DNA from: Stappia sp. 28M-7
Lineage (GTDB): Bacteria > Pseudomonadota > Alphaproteobacteria > Rhizobiales > Stappiaceae
DNA: 64,000 bases
Assembly (NCBI RefSeq): GCF_014252955.1
Contig: NZ_JACMIA010000001.1
Location: 2,626,258 to 2,690,257, forward strand
Direction: 5' to 3'
Below, in pieces: positions 49,981-57,541 of the stretch. Under the pieces are notes generated by a model that was not told where the DNA came from, ran no database searches, and saw nothing but the letters and a program-made list of their open reading frames with translations. Position numbers and translations under genes: made by a program. Positions within the stretch are counted from its first letter, which is position 1. Every line of letters starts with the position of its first letter.

Positions 49981-51111
49981 TCAAAAGTCGGTCAGGAGCC
50001 GCGACCAGCTCTCCGACGACAGGCCTTCCGCATAGACGAGGTCCTGGTCCAGCGCGCGGTGCAACGCCGGCATCCGCCCGGCGATGCAGAAGAAGCCGCG
50101 ATGGCGGAAGCACATGTGCTTTTGCGCCTGCAGCGCCTGCATCAGGAACGGCTGGGTTGCCCCGCGCGCCTCGCAATAGCCCTGCCGGTCGAGGTCGGCC
50201 AGCAGCGCGGCGACGCTCTCGCGCTCATGCCCTTCCAGGCACAGCAGATTGAGCACGCTCGCCCGCCCCCGGCCCGTGCCGCAATAGGCAGCCGCGCCGA
50301 TGGTCGCGCCGCTGGCATCGTGCATCAAGGCAAAGTGCAGCGGACCGAGCGCCGGATTCGCCTCCGCCATGCGCGACAGCCAGGCGAATTCGGACGGATC
50401 CCAGTCCGGATGGACGCTGAAGCGCCCGAACATCGGTCGCGTCTCGGCCAGAAACTGCGTCGGCCCCACCTCCTGCACCGTCACGCCCTCGGGCATATGC
50501 GCGACCAGCAGCGGACGATGCCGCCGCGCGCCCTTGTCGAGCATGCTGAGCGGCGCCAACAGCAGGCCGCCGGCCTCTCCCCTCAAGCTGCGATGCATGC
50601 GCCTTGCGCAGGCGGTCAGCGGACGGAAGACCCGGCACCATTCCAGGCTCTGGATCGGCAGGATCCGCCCCCCGCCGGTCTTCCAATGGGTGGAGCTCGC
50701 CTCTGAGGCCGTATCGGAAAACAGGAAGTCGTGGCGCTTTGCCCGAAAATGCCGCGACAGGCAGGCCGCGCCACGCGCACCCGCTTCGCCGACGGCCATG
50801 AAATTGCACAAAAGCCGCGCCGTCACCGGCTGCCCGTCGACGCGAAACCGCAGCGGCACGCAGAGAACCGCCGCGCTGAGCTCGCCCGTCTCGCTCTCAT
50901 AGACCCGGCTGCCGGTCTCGGACGTCAGCTGCGGATGGCCGAAGCAGAAGGTTTCCAGATAGGCCTCGAGGCCGGGCGCGACCCGCCCGCCGCGAAACGC
51001 GGCGCCGAACATCGCGGCCACGGCACCAAGATCCCGTCGCTCCATAGGGCGGCTGGCGTGGTGCATCGCGTCGCGCAACATAGGGCTGGTCTTGGCGATC
51101 TGTCCGTGCAT
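49981..51111 (-). CDS. GNAT-fold acyltransferase-like protein
   Basis: 376 aa. The N-terminal part (MERRDLGAVAAMFGAAFRGG; LCVPLRFRV; GEAGARGAACLSRHF) resembles a GNAT acyltransferase domain, and a second region around ALMHDASGATIGAAAYCGTGRG may be another. No catalytic assignment is possible. GGAA/AGAGGAA precedes the ATG. Confidence 0.7.
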   Translation of the reverse strand: MHGQIAKTSPMLRDAMHHASRPMERRDLGAVAAMFGAAFRGGRVAPGLEAYLETFCFGHPQLTSETGSRVYESETGELSAAVLCVPLRFRVDGQPVTARLLCNFMAVGEAGARGAACLSRHFRAKRHDFLFSDTASEASSTHWKTGGGRILPIQSLEWCRVFRPLTACARRMHRSLRGEAGGLLLAPLSMLDKGARRHRPLLVAHMPEGVTVQEVGPTQFLAETRPMFGRFSVHPDWDPSEFAWLSRMAEANPALGPLHFALMHDASGATIGAAAYCGTGRGRASVLNLLCLEGHERESVAALLADLDRQGYCEARGATQPFLMQALQAQKHMCFRHRGFFCIAGRMPALHRALDQDLVYAEGLSSESWSRLLTDF

Positions 51112-51356
51112 CCGGGAACGTTCCTCTTTCCCGCCACTATCGCGCGGCGGGCTTGAGGGAGACTTTACGGATCGCAGGAAAACGCCGTTGCCCCGGCGAA
51201 AAAAGCGCAACTGGTAAACCGGATACGAACGCTGCAGGTTTACGCAGGGGCAAATTCGCTGCCCTGCGCCGTCTTCCTGTCAGGAATACGAGGGAGGTCC
51301 GGCACCGGGCTCGGTGCGTCTCATCTCGGCAGTGTTCGGGACGGTGCGGGAAGGAA

Positions 51357-51431
51357 TGGTGGGCGATACTGGGATTGAACCAGTGACCTTTCCGGTGTGA
51401 ACGGAACGCTCTCCCGCTGAGCTAATCGCCC
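51357..51431 (-). tRNA. tRNA-Val (anticodon CAC)
   Basis: 75 nt including encoded CCA. Acceptor stem GGGCGAT/ATCGCCC, D-arm TAGCTCAGCGGGAGAGC, anticodon loop TTCACAC (anticodon CAC, reading GUG), and T-arm GGTTCAATCC are all intact. Confidence 0.97.
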
Positions 51432-51723
51432 ATGGCCTGTCGGCTGGTGAGGGGTATCTAAAGGAGCCGGCCGGGTTGCGCAAGGCGGAATTTGAGCCCC
51501 TGTGGATTTTGCGGTGGAAGCGATGTCGCGCCCGCGCATCGCCATGACGTTTTGTTGACGCCGCCCGGCTTTATTTCATGCGTGTCGGCACATTTTCGCC
51601 ATACATGTATTCGCCGCCGTTTTTATTTGACAAGCATGATGCCCGATCCCAGACTAACCGAAATTAAAAGCAAAAACCTTCCAATGAACTAGGGGACCGC
51701 GCGTCACAGCTCGGGCACAGCGC
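51432..51723. other. Intergenic region between tRNA-Val and GlxA-type regulator
   Basis: 292 bases. The half nearest the tRNA holds its promoter; the AT-rich part from about 51560 to 51690 is the likely promoter of the plus-strand regulator. No gene or repeat is supported. Confidence 0.5.
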
Positions 51724-52761
51724 ATGGCAGACCAGGCCGCATCCACGGAAAAACAAACCGTGGCCCTTATCCTTCTCGATCAGTTCTCGCTGATCGCCTT
51801 TACCTCGACCATCGAGCCGATCCGCATTGCCAACCGGGTGCTGGGCCAGGAGTTCTATTCCTGGAAAACCTACTCGGTGGACGGCAATCCGGTCCAGGCC
51901 AGCAACGGCTGCCATGTCTCCGTGCAGGGCTCGATCAACGAGCTCGACGATGCCGACATCACCCTCATCTGCTCCGGCGTCGACGTGGAGCGCGTGCCCC
52001 TGCCCAAGGAGCTCGGCACCAAGCTGCGCAAGCTGAATGCGCGCGGGCGCACCTATGGCGCCGTCTGCACCGGCTCCTATGTGCTGGCCCGCTACCACCT
52101 GCTCGACGGCCGCCGCTGCACCATCCACTGGGAGAACCTGAGGTCCTTCCGCGAGGAGTTTCCGGAGATCGAGGTCTCCGGCGACCTGTTCGCCATCGAC
52201 CGCAACTGCATCACCTGCGCCGGCGGCATGGCCGCGCTCGACATGATGCTGCGCGTCATCGCCATCCAGCACGGCGCCTATCTGGCCCATGAAGTCGCCG
52301 AGGTCGCGCTCTACCAGAACATGCGCTCGGGCGAGAGCGCGCAGCGCCACGACCTGGAGAGCCGCACCGGCATCTCCAACGTCAAGATCCTCGACGCGAT
52401 CCGCATCATGGACCTGCATATCGAGGATCCGCTGTCCTGCCAGCAGCTGGCGATGACCGTGAACCTCAGCCCGCGCCAGCTGGAGCGGTTGTTCCGCCGC
52501 CATTTCGATTGCACGCCGGGCCAATACTATCTCAAGATCCGCCTGGAGACGGCGCGCGACCTTCTGCGCCGGACCAACCGGCCGGTGCTCGACGTCGCCA
52601 TCGCCTGCGGCTTCGCCTCCACCTCGCATTTCACCAAGTGCTACCGCGAGCGCTACAGCTGCACTCCGACGGAGGAGCGGCAGTCCTATTTCTGGGCGCA
52701 GGGCGGACGCAAGCAGACCGCGCGCATCGTCGCTCCTGCGCGGATCGCGACCTCCGGCTAG
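51724..52761 (+). CDS. GlxA-type AraC transcriptional regulator
   Basis: 345 aa. An N-terminal DJ-1/PfpI-like (class I amidotransferase) domain, ~1-190 (VCTGSYVLARYHLLDGRR), is followed by a C-terminal AraC pair of helix-turn-helix motifs (LSPRQLERLFRRHF; ACGFASTSHFTKCYRERY). The GlxA subfamily often controls quaternary-amine catabolism (choline, carnitine, glycine betaine), but the target here is unknown. It precedes the EIIC-EAL gene by 170 bp, in the same direction. Confidence 0.93.
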   Translation: MADQAASTEKQTVALILLDQFSLIAFTSTIEPIRIANRVLGQEFYSWKTYSVDGNPVQASNGCHVSVQGSINELDDADITLICSGVDVERVPLPKELGTKLRKLNARGRTYGAVCTGSYVLARYHLLDGRRCTIHWENLRSFREEFPEIEVSGDLFAIDRNCITCAGGMAALDMMLRVIAIQHGAYLAHEVAEVALYQNMRSGESAQRHDLESRTGISNVKILDAIRIMDLHIEDPLSCQQLAMTVNLSPRQLERLFRRHFDCTPGQYYLKIRLETARDLLRRTNRPVLDVAIACGFASTSHFTKCYRERYSCTPTEERQSYFWAQGGRKQTARIVAPARIATSG

Positions 52762-52931
52762 GCGGAGGTCGCTCCCCTCTCATTGGGCCGCTCGCCCGAC
52801 CAGCTTCCCGCCGGTGGAGAACTCCGTATTTCTCGCAGTTGTGCAGGACACATTAACATTTGAGTGATTAGGGTCTTTTCCGAGTTTACGAACCGTATGT
52901 CGGATTCGTCGCAAGGGACGAGCGCCTGAAC

Positions 52932-54965
52932 ATGAAATCGTTTGTCGGTTTCGCCGAGAACATCCGTTTTTCCTTGCAGGAAGCGTTCATCGCGCTGGTT
53001 CCGTTCGTCATTCTGGTCTCTGCCATACGGCTGATCGACTTCGCACTGATCTACAGCGCCGCCTCTCTTCCCTTCCTGTCGTATCAAACGCTCACCGATA
53101 TTGGCCGGCTTCTGGAAATCGCGATGCCGGTGATGCTGGCGATTTCGGTTTCCTACCAGCTCTCGATCCTCTTCCGCATCGACCGGGTGACAGGCGCTGC
53201 GCTCGCGCTTGCCGTCTTCTTCTTCGACACTTACGGCACCATGGCGATCGACGATGCCGAGGCGATCTCCCTTGCCTCCATCAACGCGGTGATTGCCCCG
53301 CTGCTGGCGCTGATGATGCTGCGCGCCTGCGCCCGCCTGCCGCTCCCGCGCCTCCATCACGGCGCGCTCAGCTACAATCTGGAAAACGCGCTCAACATGG
53401 CGCTGCCGGCCCTGTTGAGCTTCGTTCTCACCGCCGTCGTGCTCGGCGTGCTGCATGATGCGGCCAATGTGATCTACGCAGCGCTCGCCCCGGCCTTCTT
53501 CGGGCTCGGTTCGGACATGGCGCTGGCGCTCTATCTGGCCGGCTCCCAGTTCATCTGGTTCCTCGGCCTGCACGGCACCAACCTTGCCTATCTCGCGGTG
53601 CCGCCCGACTTCGGTTCGTTCCTCGTCGCCGGCGACATGACGCGCGACATGTTCATGACCTCGTTCGTCAATCTCGGCGGATCGGGCACGACGCTCGGCC
53701 TGGCTCTGGCGATCCTGCTGTTCTCGCGCAACCAGCACATGCGGTCCATCGCGCTGGTCGCCCTGCCTTTCACCGCCTTCAACATCTCCGAGATCCTGGT
53801 CTTCGGCCTGCCGATCGTGCTGAACCTGCGGCTGCTTGCGCCGTTCGTCGCGGTTCCCGTCGTCTGCCAGATGCTCGGCCTTGTGGCCATCTCCCATATC
53901 GGCCTGACGGTCTATCCGACCGAAGTGCCCTGGGTGACGCCGATGTTCCTCAACGTCTACCTGCAGACCGGCGAAGTCTGGGCCGTGCTGCTGCAGGCGG
54001 CGCTGCTGGGGGTGAGCATCCTGCTCTATGCGCCCTTCGTGATCAGGTACGGGCGCATGCGGGAAAACAAGCTCGGCCCCTCGCTGCTCAACGATGGCGC
54101 CGACTTCGACGACCACATGCGCCGCCAGCACGGGCGCACCGTGTTCGACCAGCACAAGACGCTGCTGCGCAACAGCGAGGCCGCGCGCAATGCGGTCGAC
54201 TTCCTGCGCGAAAACCGGCTCGCCATGCATTACCAGCCGGAGATCGACGCGCGCACCGGCTCCTGCATCGGCTTTGAAGCCTTGCTGCGGGTCTGGGTGG
54301 AAGGACGCGGTTTCGTCGGCCCCTATTTCCTTGAAACGCTGGAAAATGCCGGCTTCGCCCATCTGATCGACCGCTGGGTCTGCCGCCAGGTGCTGCAGGA
54401 TCTGGCCCATGTTCAGGACGCCGGGCGCGACCTCATCGTCTCCATCAACCTGCATCCCGACACGATCGCCGACCGCTCCACCGTCGACTGGCTGGTCCAG
54501 GCCTTTGCCGACATGCCGGTCAGCTTCGAGATCATCGAGCGCGGGCTGCGGTCGGACCCCGCCATCGCCGACAATCTTCGCCGCCTGGCGGAAGCGGACC
54601 TGAGCGTTGCCATCGACGATTTCGGTGCGGGCCACTCCAACTTCAACCTGCTGGCCGATCTGCCGGTCAGCATCGTCAAGTTCGACCGCTCGCTGCTGCT
54701 GAGTGCGGCCGAGCAGCGCGGACGCATCGTCTACCGCAAGCTGACCGGCCTGTGCCACGAGCTCGGCTATCAGGTGGTCGCCGAAGGCGTCGAGACGCGC
54801 GCGCAGGCCGACCTTGTCACCTCCTGCGGCGTCGACCTGATCCAGGGCTGGCTGCACGCTCCGGCGATGCCGCTGGACGAGGCGCTCGACTTTGCCGCGC
54901 GCCTGAACAGCGCAACTCCCCTGAAAAGCGCCCCGGCCTGCTGGCCGCTGCAGCCGCGCGCCTGA
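52932..54965 (+). CDS. PTS EIIC membrane domain fused to a c-di-GMP EAL phosphodiesterase
   Basis: 677 aa. Residues ~10-375 are a cellobiose/lactose-type PTS permease domain (EIIC) with about ten membrane segments. Its sugar-site residues appear kept: H215 in GLHGTN, the GGSGTTLGL loop (249-257) and E287 in SEILVFGLPIVLN. Residues ~425-655 are an EAL domain with every catalytic residue visible: E449 (FEALLR), N506, E536, D562-D563 (DDFGAG), K583, E618/E621 (EGVET), Q638. No EIIA or EIIB partner is nearby. So the protein probably senses an external sugar and degrades c-di-GMP rather than transporting by phosphorylation; this is inference. Confidence 0.93.
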   Translation: MKSFVGFAENIRFSLQEAFIALVPFVILVSAIRLIDFALIYSAASLPFLSYQTLTDIGRLLEIAMPVMLAISVSYQLSILFRIDRVTGAALALAVFFFDTYGTMAIDDAEAISLASINAVIAPLLALMMLRACARLPLPRLHHGALSYNLENALNMALPALLSFVLTAVVLGVLHDAANVIYAALAPAFFGLGSDMALALYLAGSQFIWFLGLHGTNLAYLAVPPDFGSFLVAGDMTRDMFMTSFVNLGGSGTTLGLALAILLFSRNQHMRSIALVALPFTAFNISEILVFGLPIVLNLRLLAPFVAVPVVCQMLGLVAISHIGLTVYPTEVPWVTPMFLNVYLQTGEVWAVLLQAALLGVSILLYAPFVIRYGRMRENKLGPSLLNDGADFDDHMRRQHGRTVFDQHKTLLRNSEAARNAVDFLRENRLAMHYQPEIDARTGSCIGFEALLRVWVEGRGFVGPYFLETLENAGFAHLIDRWVCRQVLQDLAHVQDAGRDLIVSINLHPDTIADRSTVDWLVQAFADMPVSFEIIERGLRSDPAIADNLRRLAEADLSVAIDDFGAGHSNFNLLADLPVSIVKFDRSLLLSAAEQRGRIVYRKLTGLCHELGYQVVAEGVETRAQADLVTSCGVDLIQGWLHAPAMPLDEALDFAARLNSATPLKSAPACWPLQPRA

Positions 54966-55088
54966 GCGCCGCGCTCCCCTTCCCGACAGCCGGGAAGCTG
55001 TGCCGGCAAGGGACTATTAAACGCGTTTCCGACTTCCGCTTAGAATCGCCGCTCCGCTGGCGCACACTGGGTTTCCAGCCTGACGGTT

Positions 55089-56723
55089 GTGAAACGAGGA
55101 TGCGACTTGCAGCACTTCATCCGAAAGGGAAGCTCTGAAGCGGACGTGCTCCGGCATCTCCTGGCCACCGTGCATCAGGGGATCACCGTGATGGATCGCC
55201 ACTTGCGCATCGTCCTGGTCAACGAGACGGCCTGCCGGCTGCTCGACCTGCCGAGAAGCCTCGTCGAGCAGACGCCCGGACTGGAGGAGGTCCTGCGCTT
55301 CAACGCGCTGCGGGGCGAGTACGGCCCCGGCGACCCCGAAGCCCAGGTCCGCGAGCGCCTGGAGCTCGCCCGCAGCCGGGACATGTACGATTTCGAGCGC
55401 GAGCGCCCCGACGGCACGGTGCTCAGGATCCAGGGCACGCCGATGCCGGACGGCGGCTTCGTGACCATCTACACCGATGTCACCGAGGCGCGCCGGCAGA
55501 AGGACGCCGTCACCGAGGCGCGCGACCTTCTGGAGGAGCGTCTCGAGGAGCGCACCGTGGAACTGCGCCGCGGTCGCGACCTGCTCGCCAGCACGGTCAA
55601 TGCGGTCAACGACGGTCTGGTGGTGGTCGACGAGAGCGGCCGGATCGTGCTGACCAACAACACGTTCGACCGGCTGTTTCCCAGCGAGCGCAGTTGGACC
55701 GACAGCGGCGGAAACATCGTCGACGTGCTGCAGCGGCTCGGCCCGGCAGGGTTGGCAGAAGCGCTGGAAGGCCTGGAAACCGATCCCGAGACGCCGAGCG
55801 AGTTCCGCTTCGGGGCCCGCAGCTGGTATCGCGTCAGCTGCTGCCGGACCGGCGACGACGGCACGGTGATCTACCGCTTTGCCGATATCACCACCTTCAA
55901 GCTCCAGCACCGGGCACTGCAGCAGCACACCGACAAGCTGGTGAAGATGCTGCGCAACGAGCAGAAGATCAACGAGATGCAGCGCGAGTTCGTCTCGATG
56001 GCCTCGCACGAGTTCCGCACCCCCCTCGCCATCATCGACAGCAACGCGCAACGCCTGCGCCGCATGCTTGACCGGCACGTCGCGAACGGGGCAAACGCGA
56101 TCGACGACGACGCCGCAACCGCGCTGACCCGCCGGCTTGCAAACATCCGGGAATCCGTCGACCGGATGCAGTACCTGATCAACCGCTTCCTGAGCTTCAC
56201 GCAGCACCAGTCGGGCGCTCTCGAGCTGGAGCTGAAGGAAAGCGCGTTGCGGCCGCTGGTTCAGGCGGTGTGCCAGCGCCAGCAGGGCCTGTGCACGACG
56301 CATGTCATCGACATGGACCTCGATGCCCTGCCCGAGACCGCGATGATCGACGCCCGCCTCATCGAGCAGTGCATCGCCAACATCCTGTCGAACGCCATCA
56401 AGTACTCGGCCGGCCGCGACAGCATCCGCGTTCGCGGGCTCACCGAGAACGGTCAGGCGGTCATCCGCATAGAGGACGACGGCGTCGGCATTCCCGAAAA
56501 GGAAATCCCGAAGATCTTCAACCGCTACTTCCGCGCCTCCACCTCCAGCGGCATACCGGGCACCGGCATCGGCCTGCACATGACGGACATGGTGGTCTCG
56601 GAGCACCGCGGAAAACTGAATGTCTCGAGCGAGGTCGGGCGCGGCACGGTGGTCGAGATCCGCCTGCCCCACACGGCAGCCCGCCCCGCCAACACCCAAA
56701 GCGTCAACGAGGCAGCCCCATGA
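55089..56723 (+). CDS. PAS-domain sensor histidine kinase
   Basis: 544 aa, soluble. Two PAS domains (about 20-130 and 180-275; the first has the PAS_7-type GITVMDRHLRIVLVN), a coiled linker, a HisKA domain with phosphoacceptor H307 (SMASHEFRTPL) and an HATPase domain (NILSNAIKYS, DDGVGIP, GTGIGL). Start is uncertain: GTG 55089 is the longest; a TTG at 55107 has GAGGA upstream. Its stop overlaps the downstream response regulator start (ATGA). Confidence 0.92.
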   Translation: MKRGCDLQHFIRKGSSEADVLRHLLATVHQGITVMDRHLRIVLVNETACRLLDLPRSLVEQTPGLEEVLRFNALRGEYGPGDPEAQVRERLELARSRDMYDFERERPDGTVLRIQGTPMPDGGFVTIYTDVTEARRQKDAVTEARDLLEERLEERTVELRRGRDLLASTVNAVNDGLVVVDESGRIVLTNNTFDRLFPSERSWTDSGGNIVDVLQRLGPAGLAEALEGLETDPETPSEFRFGARSWYRVSCCRTGDDGTVIYRFADITTFKLQHRALQQHTDKLVKMLRNEQKINEMQREFVSMASHEFRTPLAIIDSNAQRLRRMLDRHVANGANAIDDDAATALTRRLANIRESVDRMQYLINRFLSFTQHQSGALELELKESALRPLVQAVCQRQQGLCTTHVIDMDLDALPETAMIDARLIEQCIANILSNAIKYSAGRDSIRVRGLTENGQAVIRIEDDGVGIPEKEIPKIFNRYFRASTSSGIPGTGIGLHMTDMVVSEHRGKLNVSSEVGRGTVVEIRLPHTAARPANTQSVNEAAP

Positions 56724-57541
56724 CCCACAAGACGACGATCCTGTGCATCGAGGACGAGAAGCTGCTGCTGGAAGACCTGACGGAAGAGCTTCAGGATGCC
56801 GGCTACGAGGTCCTGACCGCCAGCAACGGGCAGGAAGGCCTCGACTGCCTCCAGCAGCATGTCCCGGACCTCGTCATCTGCGACATGATGATGCCAGTGA
56901 TGAGCGGGCCGGAGCTGCTGGCCCGCATCCGCAGCGACTTCCCCCGGCTGACCCGCATGCCCTTCATCTTCCTCACCGCGCTCGCCACGCGCGACGACAT
57001 CATCCAGGGCAAGAAGCTGGGCGCGGACGACTATCTCACCAAGCCGCTCGACTTCGACATGCTGCTGGCGACGGTCGAGGCGCGGCTGAACGAAGTCAGG
57101 CGCATCGACGGCGCCCACCGGGCACAGCTCATGCAGATCGAAAAGGCGATCCGCCAGTCGCGGCAGGCACGCGGCCCCTTGCGCATCGCCCTTGTCGGCG
57201 GTGTGGCGAAGGTGACCGAGCCGATCCACGCCGCACTGGAGGAGCTGGGCTGCGAAGTCGCGCTCGTTCCGGAGGAGAACCTGAAGCACAAGAGCTACAG
57301 CTTCGACCGGCAGGACATCGTCCTGCTCGTCTACAGCAAGTTCGTGCACTACTACCTGCAATACATGACCGGCCAGGGAGTTCGCCCCCAGCACGGCAAG
57401 ATGGTGCTGCTGGCCCCTCCGAACATGAGCGAGGGCGCGCGCGCCGGCCTTCTGGAAACCGGTATCGACGGCTTCCTCGACTATCCCTATCGGCCCGTCG
57501 AGATCTTCAAGCTGCTGATGGACCGCCTGCAGCCGGCCTGA
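56720..57541 (+). CDS. Response regulator with a receiver and a degenerate second receiver-like domain
   Basis: 273 aa. N-terminal receiver 1-125 with D55 (VICDMMMP) and Lys in YLTKPLD. After a helical linker a second domain (~150-273) has the receiver fold pattern (LRIALVGGVA, DIVLLVY, KMVLLAPP, GIDGFLDYPYRPVE) but lacks the phosphoacceptor Asp and has Tyr for the conserved Lys. No DNA-binding output. Translationally coupled to the kinase upstream. Confidence 0.9.
   Translation: MTHKTTILCIEDEKLLLEDLTEELQDAGYEVLTASNGQEGLDCLQQHVPDLVICDMMMPVMSGPELLARIRSDFPRLTRMPFIFLTALATRDDIIQGKKLGADDYLTKPLDFDMLLATVEARLNEVRRIDGAHRAQLMQIEKAIRQSRQARGPLRIALVGGVAKVTEPIHAALEELGCEVALVPEENLKHKSYSFDRQDIVLLVYSKFVHYYLQYMTGQGVRPQHGKMVLLAPPNMSEGARAGLLETGIDGFLDYPYRPVEIFKLLMDRLQPA

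Follow-up and report, generated by a model that had tools for sequence, protein, structure and literature searches.

The EIIC-EAL gene at this locus raises the question of what a PTS sugar permease domain does once it is fused to a c-di-GMP phosphodiesterase domain: whether it still transports, merely anchors its partner in the membrane, or serves as a receptor. A preliminary description of the window (the whole 64 kb stretch of DNA analyzed here) had favored the last of these.

One constrained gene encodes both domains

The fusion gene and its recognizable regulatory neighbors are as follows.

51724..52761, + strand: AraC-family regulator, upstream; the best NCBIfam model is GbdR, below its cut-off; syntenic
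52932..54965, + strand: EIIC-EAL fusion gene, 677 aa, ATG start; supported by the open reading frame, Pfam, orthologues and dN/dS
55089..56723, + strand: PAS histidine kinase, downstream; shared by four of the seven syntenic loci, the window among them
56720..57541, + strand: response regulator paired with the PAS histidine kinase; from Pfam and synteny

That one 677-aa reading frame joins a complete EIIC permease domain to an EAL domain, as first described, was borne out by Pfam, with both matches above their cut-offs. PTS_EIIC matched residues 17-308 with 66.7 bits (cut-off 30.7), spanning positions 2-318 of the 319 in the profile, while EAL matched residues 423-644 with 191.8 bits (cut-off 31.3). 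The best NCBIfam permease models belong to the lactose/cellobiose IIC family, for which the fusion protein scored 118.3 bits and thus fell below the curated lacE and cellobiose IIC cut-offs of 236 and 434.45 bits. The start is conserved in three relatives of 87-90% identity, whose proteins are 676-677 aa long, and NG86 dN/dS against five relatives ranged from 0.02 to 0.48 (EIIC domain, 0.16-0.38; linker, 0.02-0.48; EAL domain, 0.05-0.27). From these results, we conclude that the fusion gene is real and constrained.

In each of the seven loci compared, of which the window is one, the gene is flanked by the AraC regulator on one side and by an amino-acid-type ABC operon on the other. No sugar gene was recognized beside it in the window, its neighbors being the amino-acid-type ABC system and the AraC regulator. 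The kinase/regulator pair occurs in the window and in genomes G002, G011 and G008, and in G008 it is located on the opposite side of that gene. A search of positions 51000-56000 with Rfam at gathering thresholds returned only a tRNA, whose gene (51360-51431, - strand) lies upstream of the AraC regulator.

Fused relatives are found in six phyla

The preliminary description had implied that the fusion is unique, and this part of it did not survive. Full-length relatives were found in 7 of 14 genomes of the genus (the window's own included), and among 87 genomes of the family this EIIC was present in 16, all of them as EIIC-EAL proteins. An even sample of the class gave such an EIIC in 3 of 385 genomes, namely the window's own, G193 (an EAL fusion) and G180 (free). 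The G180 genome, which measures 1.4 Mb, has four free EIIC matches (L137, L139, L140 and L141), two of which have an internal stop. A sample of the phylum, which was searched with a fused-protein profile, scored at most four candidates per genome and served as an independent check, matched in 30 of 398 genomes, the best match being EAL-fused in 17 (window and G193 included) and free in 13. In a species-genome scan, in which free proteins were selected for their similarity to the fused profile, the best 80 of at least 580 relatives comprised 37 EAL, 4 histidine-kinase and 1 GGDEF fusions, 37 free EIICs and 1 protein cut by a contig end; as these are the best 80 of at least 580, the ratio of fused to free proteins is not a frequency. 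The fused rows span Pseudomonadota, Campylobacterota, Myxococcota, Spirochaetota, Synergistota and Bacillota. Among 55 fused proteins examined with Pfam, some with trimmed N-termini, all 55 matched PTS_EIIC, all 55 matched EAL, and no third family appeared at E <= 0.001. A fusion unique to the window is thus ruled out by the relatives found in the genus, family, class, phylum and species-genome scans.

The EIIC-EAL architecture is also already known and is by itself no great surprise. A review lists the combination of PTS_EIIC with c-di-GMP domains, which is that of the window protein, as rare, and calls the domain a phosphoreceiver (PMC8846402). In the open-access literature, this is the only text in which we found the combination named, so far as the available portions go, and an earlier description is possible; the fusion is not described in the corresponding portions of PMC10513181, PMC11878068, PMC9756655, PMC1183210, PMC10100716, PMC6016940 and PMC7526171. 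In a scan of viral contigs, eight stretches matched a pattern and none encoded a relative, giving no sign of phage carriage. One EIIC-EAL gene (L022, Tritonibacter mobilis) is carried by a plasmid of 147 kb, in the vicinity of genes for glycosyltransferases and aminotransferases.

The EIIC domain keeps the transporter fold and the core of its pocket

AlphaFold2 modeled residues 1-384 with a mean pLDDT of 93.5 and a pTM of 0.89. When this model was searched with Foldseek, ranks 1-7 were all EIIC entries at a probability of 1.00, two of them integrative models, and every other match among the 50 listed had a probability of 0.21 or less. The model superimposes on the EIIC entries at about 7-10 A rmsd, and on ChbC (3qnq) at 9-10 A, a gap that may reflect another elevator state and that we do not use as evidence. 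Both ChbC and MalT work by an elevator mechanism (PMC7329351). In a profile search of the PDB with the EIIC domain, the diacetylchitobiose EIIC ChbC (3qnq) was the sole sequence at E <= 0.001 (E 2.9e-63).

In this alignment, W209, H214, E287 and W334 correspond to W245, H250, E334 and W382 of ChbC, which we take to be sugar contacts. ChbC is therefore like the window EIIC in that all four pocket residues align, and it differs in being a free-standing transporter that has no output domain and keeps the P..VP loop described below. Of the two likely contact residues named in the preliminary description, E287 was right, whereas H215 was misnumbered, the histidine being H214. The counts below are for a discovery set and for an independent Pseudomonadota validation set taken from the phylum sample; they take in close relatives (clustering at 50% reduces the discovery set to about 37 fused and about 13 free proteins), they omit, as do the trees, L056 (partial EIIC) and L002 (duplicate of the window), and they keep L086 (partial EAL) and L090 (frame ends after HisKA) as fused.

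52932..54071, + strand: EIIC membrane domain, residues 1-380; Pfam 17-308, AF2 pLDDT 93.5, Foldseek ranks 1-7 EIIC
53556..53558, + strand: W209 (ChbC W245); W in 64/64 fused and 45/45 free, validation 14/15 fused and 12/13 free
53571..53573, + strand: H214 (ChbC H250); H in 62/64 fused and 44/45 free, validation 12/15 fused and 8/13 free
53790..53792, + strand: E287 (ChbC E334); E in 64/64 fused and 45/45 free, validation 15/15 fused and 13/13 free
53931..53933, + strand: W334 (ChbC W382); W in 62/64 fused and 45/45 free, validation 6/15 fused and 11/13 free

N284 was kept as well, in 64/64 and 15/15 fused proteins of the two sets and in 40/45 and 12/13 free ones. The pocket is not uniform, however, since in the validation set only 6/15 fused proteins keep W334 and 12/15 keep H214, and this speaks against a receptor reading; H214 is also weak in the matching Pseudomonadota free set (8/13). 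Because the pocket varies by lineage and nothing recognized at the locus points to a particular sugar, we do not commit to cellobiose as the ligand. In the Glc family, transport and phosphorylation both require the glutamate of the GITEP motif, and a conserved HP1b histidine is implicated in phosphotransfer (PMC12900739).

An intact EAL domain follows a linker of guarded length

The second half of the protein consists of the following features.

54087..54212, + strand: linker helix from EIIC to EAL, residues 386-427; AF2 secondary structure
54198..54863, + strand: EAL phosphodiesterase domain, residues 423-644; Pfam 191.8 bits, catalytic residues in 55/55, Foldseek

As the preliminary description had claimed, the catalytic residues of the EAL domain are all present: E449, N506, E533, E536, D562, D563, K583, E618, E621 and Q638 were identical in 55/55 fused proteins, their metal and catalytic roles being presumed by analogy with RocR. 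A degenerate EAL domain of the LapD/FimX kind is ruled out by these intact residues. Our first Foldseek search was swamped by EAL matches, the best of which was the EAL domain of BifA (8arv). BifA, MorA, RocR and DosP share the EAL catalytic domain and its residues with the window protein and differ from it in their input domains.

In the full-length AF2 model (mean pLDDT 85.2, pTM 0.59), a long helix, residues 386-427, runs from the EIIC domain into the EAL domain. A low-confidence stretch, 381-393, overlaps this helix, and together with the pTM of 0.59 it means that the position of one domain relative to the other is unreliable. The distance between F369 and Y434 was 62-66 residues in 50 of 55 fused proteins (55, 70, 75, 76 and 76 in the rest) and in 14 of the 15 validation proteins (71 in the remaining one), and the fused proteins with this guarded length fall to 20% identity to the window protein. 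A helical linker of guarded length would suit the needs of a mechanical signal.

These features bear on the possibility that the EIIC domain is a mere membrane anchor or localization module, with an EAL domain that is constitutive or answers cytoplasmic signals. A precedent is CbrA, in which an SLC5 transporter domain sits on a histidine kinase; this resembles the window protein in joining a transporter-like domain to a signaling output, and it differs in its transporter family, its narrow distribution and the disputed role of its transport domain (PMC8871633). Studies cited there report that the transporter-like domain is not needed for signaling and that substrate transport is unnecessary for signal transduction (PMC8871633), and the lack of recognized sugar genes beside our locus would also fit an anchor. 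On the other side, E287 and W209, and in most cases H214, persist in proteins that have diverged greatly, the EIIC domain is under purifying selection and the linker length is held, all of which goes beyond the needs of a mere anchor. Thus, we consider an anchoring role unlikely.

Fused EIICs are set apart by residue signature and phylogeny

Four positions at which free transporters carry proline are occupied in the window protein by H142, S147, A188 and I288, the first two belonging to the loop listed here.

53355..53372, + strand: residues 142-147, loop without the free-transporter P..VP; from alignments, within loop 135-147 of the model

In the EIIC model, residues 135-147 form a loop and residues 148-191 a single long helix. 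Prolines at 142, 147, 188 and 288 were found in 44, 44, 45 and 45 of the 45 free proteins of the discovery set, against 1, 0, 11 and 14 of its 64 fused proteins; in the validation set, the corresponding numbers were 12, 13, 13 and 13 of 13 free and 1, 2, 0 and 2 of 15 fused proteins. Overall, all 79 fused proteins have at most two of the four prolines, and 57 of 58 free EIICs have three or four. This signature is a feature found in the present analysis and has no published definition. Q355 is likewise fixed in the fused proteins (64/64 and 15/15), while free ones have it in 19/45 and 9/13. Residue 288 comes directly after the conserved glutamate, where the GITEP motif has the proline of its EP. 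In Glc-type EIIC, the amphipathic helix that moves in transport is reported to bend at a proline (PMC12900739). The lost prolines may have a part in the docking of EIIB or in the movement of this helix.

Some fused proteins have gaps in the alignment around residues 142-147. An alignment-free, unanchored search for P..VP did not separate the groups, matching 50/79 fused and 56/58 free proteins, counts to which a later 'PF..VP' stretch can also contribute. Limited to the stretch before the pocket, the search matched 56/58 free and 14/79 fused proteins, which is the same direction as in the alignment, and the 14 fused matches look like hydrophobic stretches rather than the polar loop.

The trees separated the same two groups. 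A tree of 110 rows placed 45 of its 46 free-labeled rows on one side of a branch with support 99; the exception, L082, is a gene inside which the contig ends, first counted as free and later dropped. In a 65-row tree, from which near copies at >=60% identity had been dropped, fused and free proteins formed the two sides of one branch (99/94, and 98% of 200 bootstrap trees), and the split held in an 83-row tree to which the Pseudomonadota set was added (near copies dropped at >=65%), with an SH-aLRT of 94. As the trees are unrooted, a single origin of the fusion is compatible with them but not proved.

Domains of the same EIIC group were also found with other outputs. L048, L088, L090 and L091, from Treponema, Synergistaceae and Spirochaetales metagenome genomes, have the arrangement EIIC-PAS-HisKA-HATPase-REC (L090 ending after HisKA), and a protein of Vibrio aquaticus (L070:4989-7310) has the arrangement EIIC-GAF-GGDEF and is possibly a sugar-controlled diguanylate cyclase. 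We found no mention of an EIIC-histidine kinase fusion in the available portions of the open-access literature, where an earlier description is possible. The kinase fusions adjoin Synergistota EAL fusions in the tree, and the GGDEF fusion adjoins a Photobacterium EAL fusion, suggesting that a sensory EIIC already in place exchanged one output for another.

Carriers of the fusion mostly lack an EIIB partner

The preliminary description had noted that no EIIA, EIIB or HPr lies nearby, and we reached the same result. With home-made profiles for EIIB, EIIA and 6-phospho-glucosidase, all seeded from one Priestia operon, neither an EIIA or EIIB nor a 6-phospho-glycosidase relative was recognized in the 64 kb window. 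HPr is present in 13 of 14 genus genomes, and the window genome's copy is on the same contig at a distance of ~2.4 Mb, next to a gene that reads as a mannose-type EIIA. The genome-wide check for EIIB and EIIA that had been suggested was also negative for the kinds searched: PTS_IIB (PF02302), lactose/cellobiose EIIA (PF02255), Glc-type EIIB (PF00367, searched among all 87 family genomes) and Man-type (sorbose/mannose) EIIB (PF03830) were each found in 0/14 genus genomes, and the single PTS_EIIC match in the window genome is the fusion protein itself. Among the 16 fusion carriers of the family, 15 lack PTS_IIB, and the remaining one, G032, is also the only one with Glc-type EIIB; 6 of 16 further carrier genomes lack PTS_IIB. 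Altogether, PTS_IIB is missing from 21/32 carrier genomes and present in some form in 11/32, which argues against a universal rule.

The neighborhood profiles matched EIIB at 35, EIIA at 31, glycosidase at 14 and at least one of these at 36 of 39 free loci, and recognized none of the three at 48 fused loci (43 EAL, 4 kinase and 1 GGDEF). As a control, other loci were searched with flanks of ~1.4 kb, where the profiles matched 8/13 free (EIIB 2, EIIA 7) and 0/15 fused loci of Pseudomonadota and 0/9 fused loci of the family; genus regions of 13-18 kb gave 0/6, so that PTS neighbors were recognized at 0/30 fused loci outside the first set. Since EIIB was matched at only 2/13 control free loci, these profiles may miss divergent or more distant EIIBs, a weakness of recall from which the whole-genome Pfam searches for EIIB and EIIA are free.

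It could be argued from the complete EIIC fold, and from the PTS_IIB in 11/32 carrier genomes, that the protein is a working transporter with a signaling domain attached, taking up sugar by facilitated diffusion or with a distant EIIB while the EAL domain reads the flux. We find this quite improbable given that the proline signature of transporters is lost, recognized PTS neighbors occur at 0/48 fused loci, and none of the 14 genus genomes has PTS_IIB, PTS_IIA or a Glc- or Man-type EIIB. PTS phosphate is carried by a histidine of EIIA and by a cysteine or histidine of EIIB, and to our knowledge EIIC domains have no phospho-acceptor residue of this chain, which counts against any reading in which the domain receives phosphate. 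That the EIIC domain reads the phosphorylation state of the PTS, as the review's term implies (PMC8846402), would suit a genome with HPr, but with three EIIB kinds and the lactose/cellobiose EIIA not found in the genus we regard it as highly improbable.

A candidate membrane receptor on an EIIC scaffold

A transporter fold fused to a signaling output, the mark of a transceptor, was found here by Pfam, by the model and by Foldseek. The best explanation, and in our judgment probably the correct one, is that the protein is a phosphorylation-independent membrane receptor built on an EIIC scaffold, which controls a c-di-GMP phosphodiesterase. The proposal that a transporter was turned into a receptor is therefore well supported at the family level: a partner EIIB or EIIA was not found in the genus, transporter-specific residues are lost, the linker length is nearly fixed, and the fused group stands apart from free EIICs in the trees and has taken other signaling outputs as well.

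In the mechanism that we propose, a small molecule, most likely a sugar, would bind to the EIIC domain in what was once the transport pocket, formed by W209, H214, E287 and W334, and binding would shift the domain among its elevator-like conformations. The last membrane helix and the helical linker, whose length is nearly fixed, would pass this movement on to the EAL domain, where it would alter the rate of c-di-GMP breakdown. The protein would neither import nor phosphorylate sugar as a PTS does, since EIIBs of the kinds searched for were not found in the genome. Ligand binding, the identity of the ligand, the direction of control and the activity of the EAL domain are all predictions of this scheme, and the direct link from an external sugar to biofilm and motility that was suggested earlier is a plausible consequence of it.

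Similar designs are known from other protein families. The idea of a transceptor is established for S-component folds, and the 5TMR/S-component transceptors likewise use a transporter fold as a receptor, with GGDEF, EAL and kinase outputs, although their fold is that of an ECF S-component and not of EIIC (PMC11109136). Among printed examples of sugars steering c-di-GMP through PTS phosphorylation states is PdeS of Vibrio cholerae with EIIA-Glc, where sugar status also controls a c-di-GMP phosphodiesterase; there, the control works by EIIA phosphorylation and a protein complex and involves no fused permease (PMC8846402). The same review labels the PTS_EIIC domain a phosphoreceiver (PMC8846402); in the genus studied here, the EIIB kinds searched for were not found, and conservation lies in the pocket core and the linker length.

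A broader claim is that these EIICs are an old, separate group of receptors free of PTS phosphorylation, spread over at least six phyla, with EAL, GGDEF and hybrid histidine kinase outputs, which read sugars directly through the permease pocket and signal through a helical linker of near-fixed length. For this, we judge the case evenly balanced. What seems new is the evidence for a receptor group apart from the transporters, mostly without PTS partners and with a testable signature.

If EIIC domains do serve as direct receptors, bacteria that have no sugar-PTS partner could still read sugars by means of a PTS-derived protein. The switch from transporter to receptor would be testable residue by residue, as four prolines and one glutamine differ between the groups while the chief pocket residues are shared. 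The findings also call into question the printed label 'phosphoreceiver' for PTS_EIIC, and they suggest ligand-bearing receptors for orphan signaling proteins in Clostridia, Spirochaetota, Synergistota and marine Proteobacteria.
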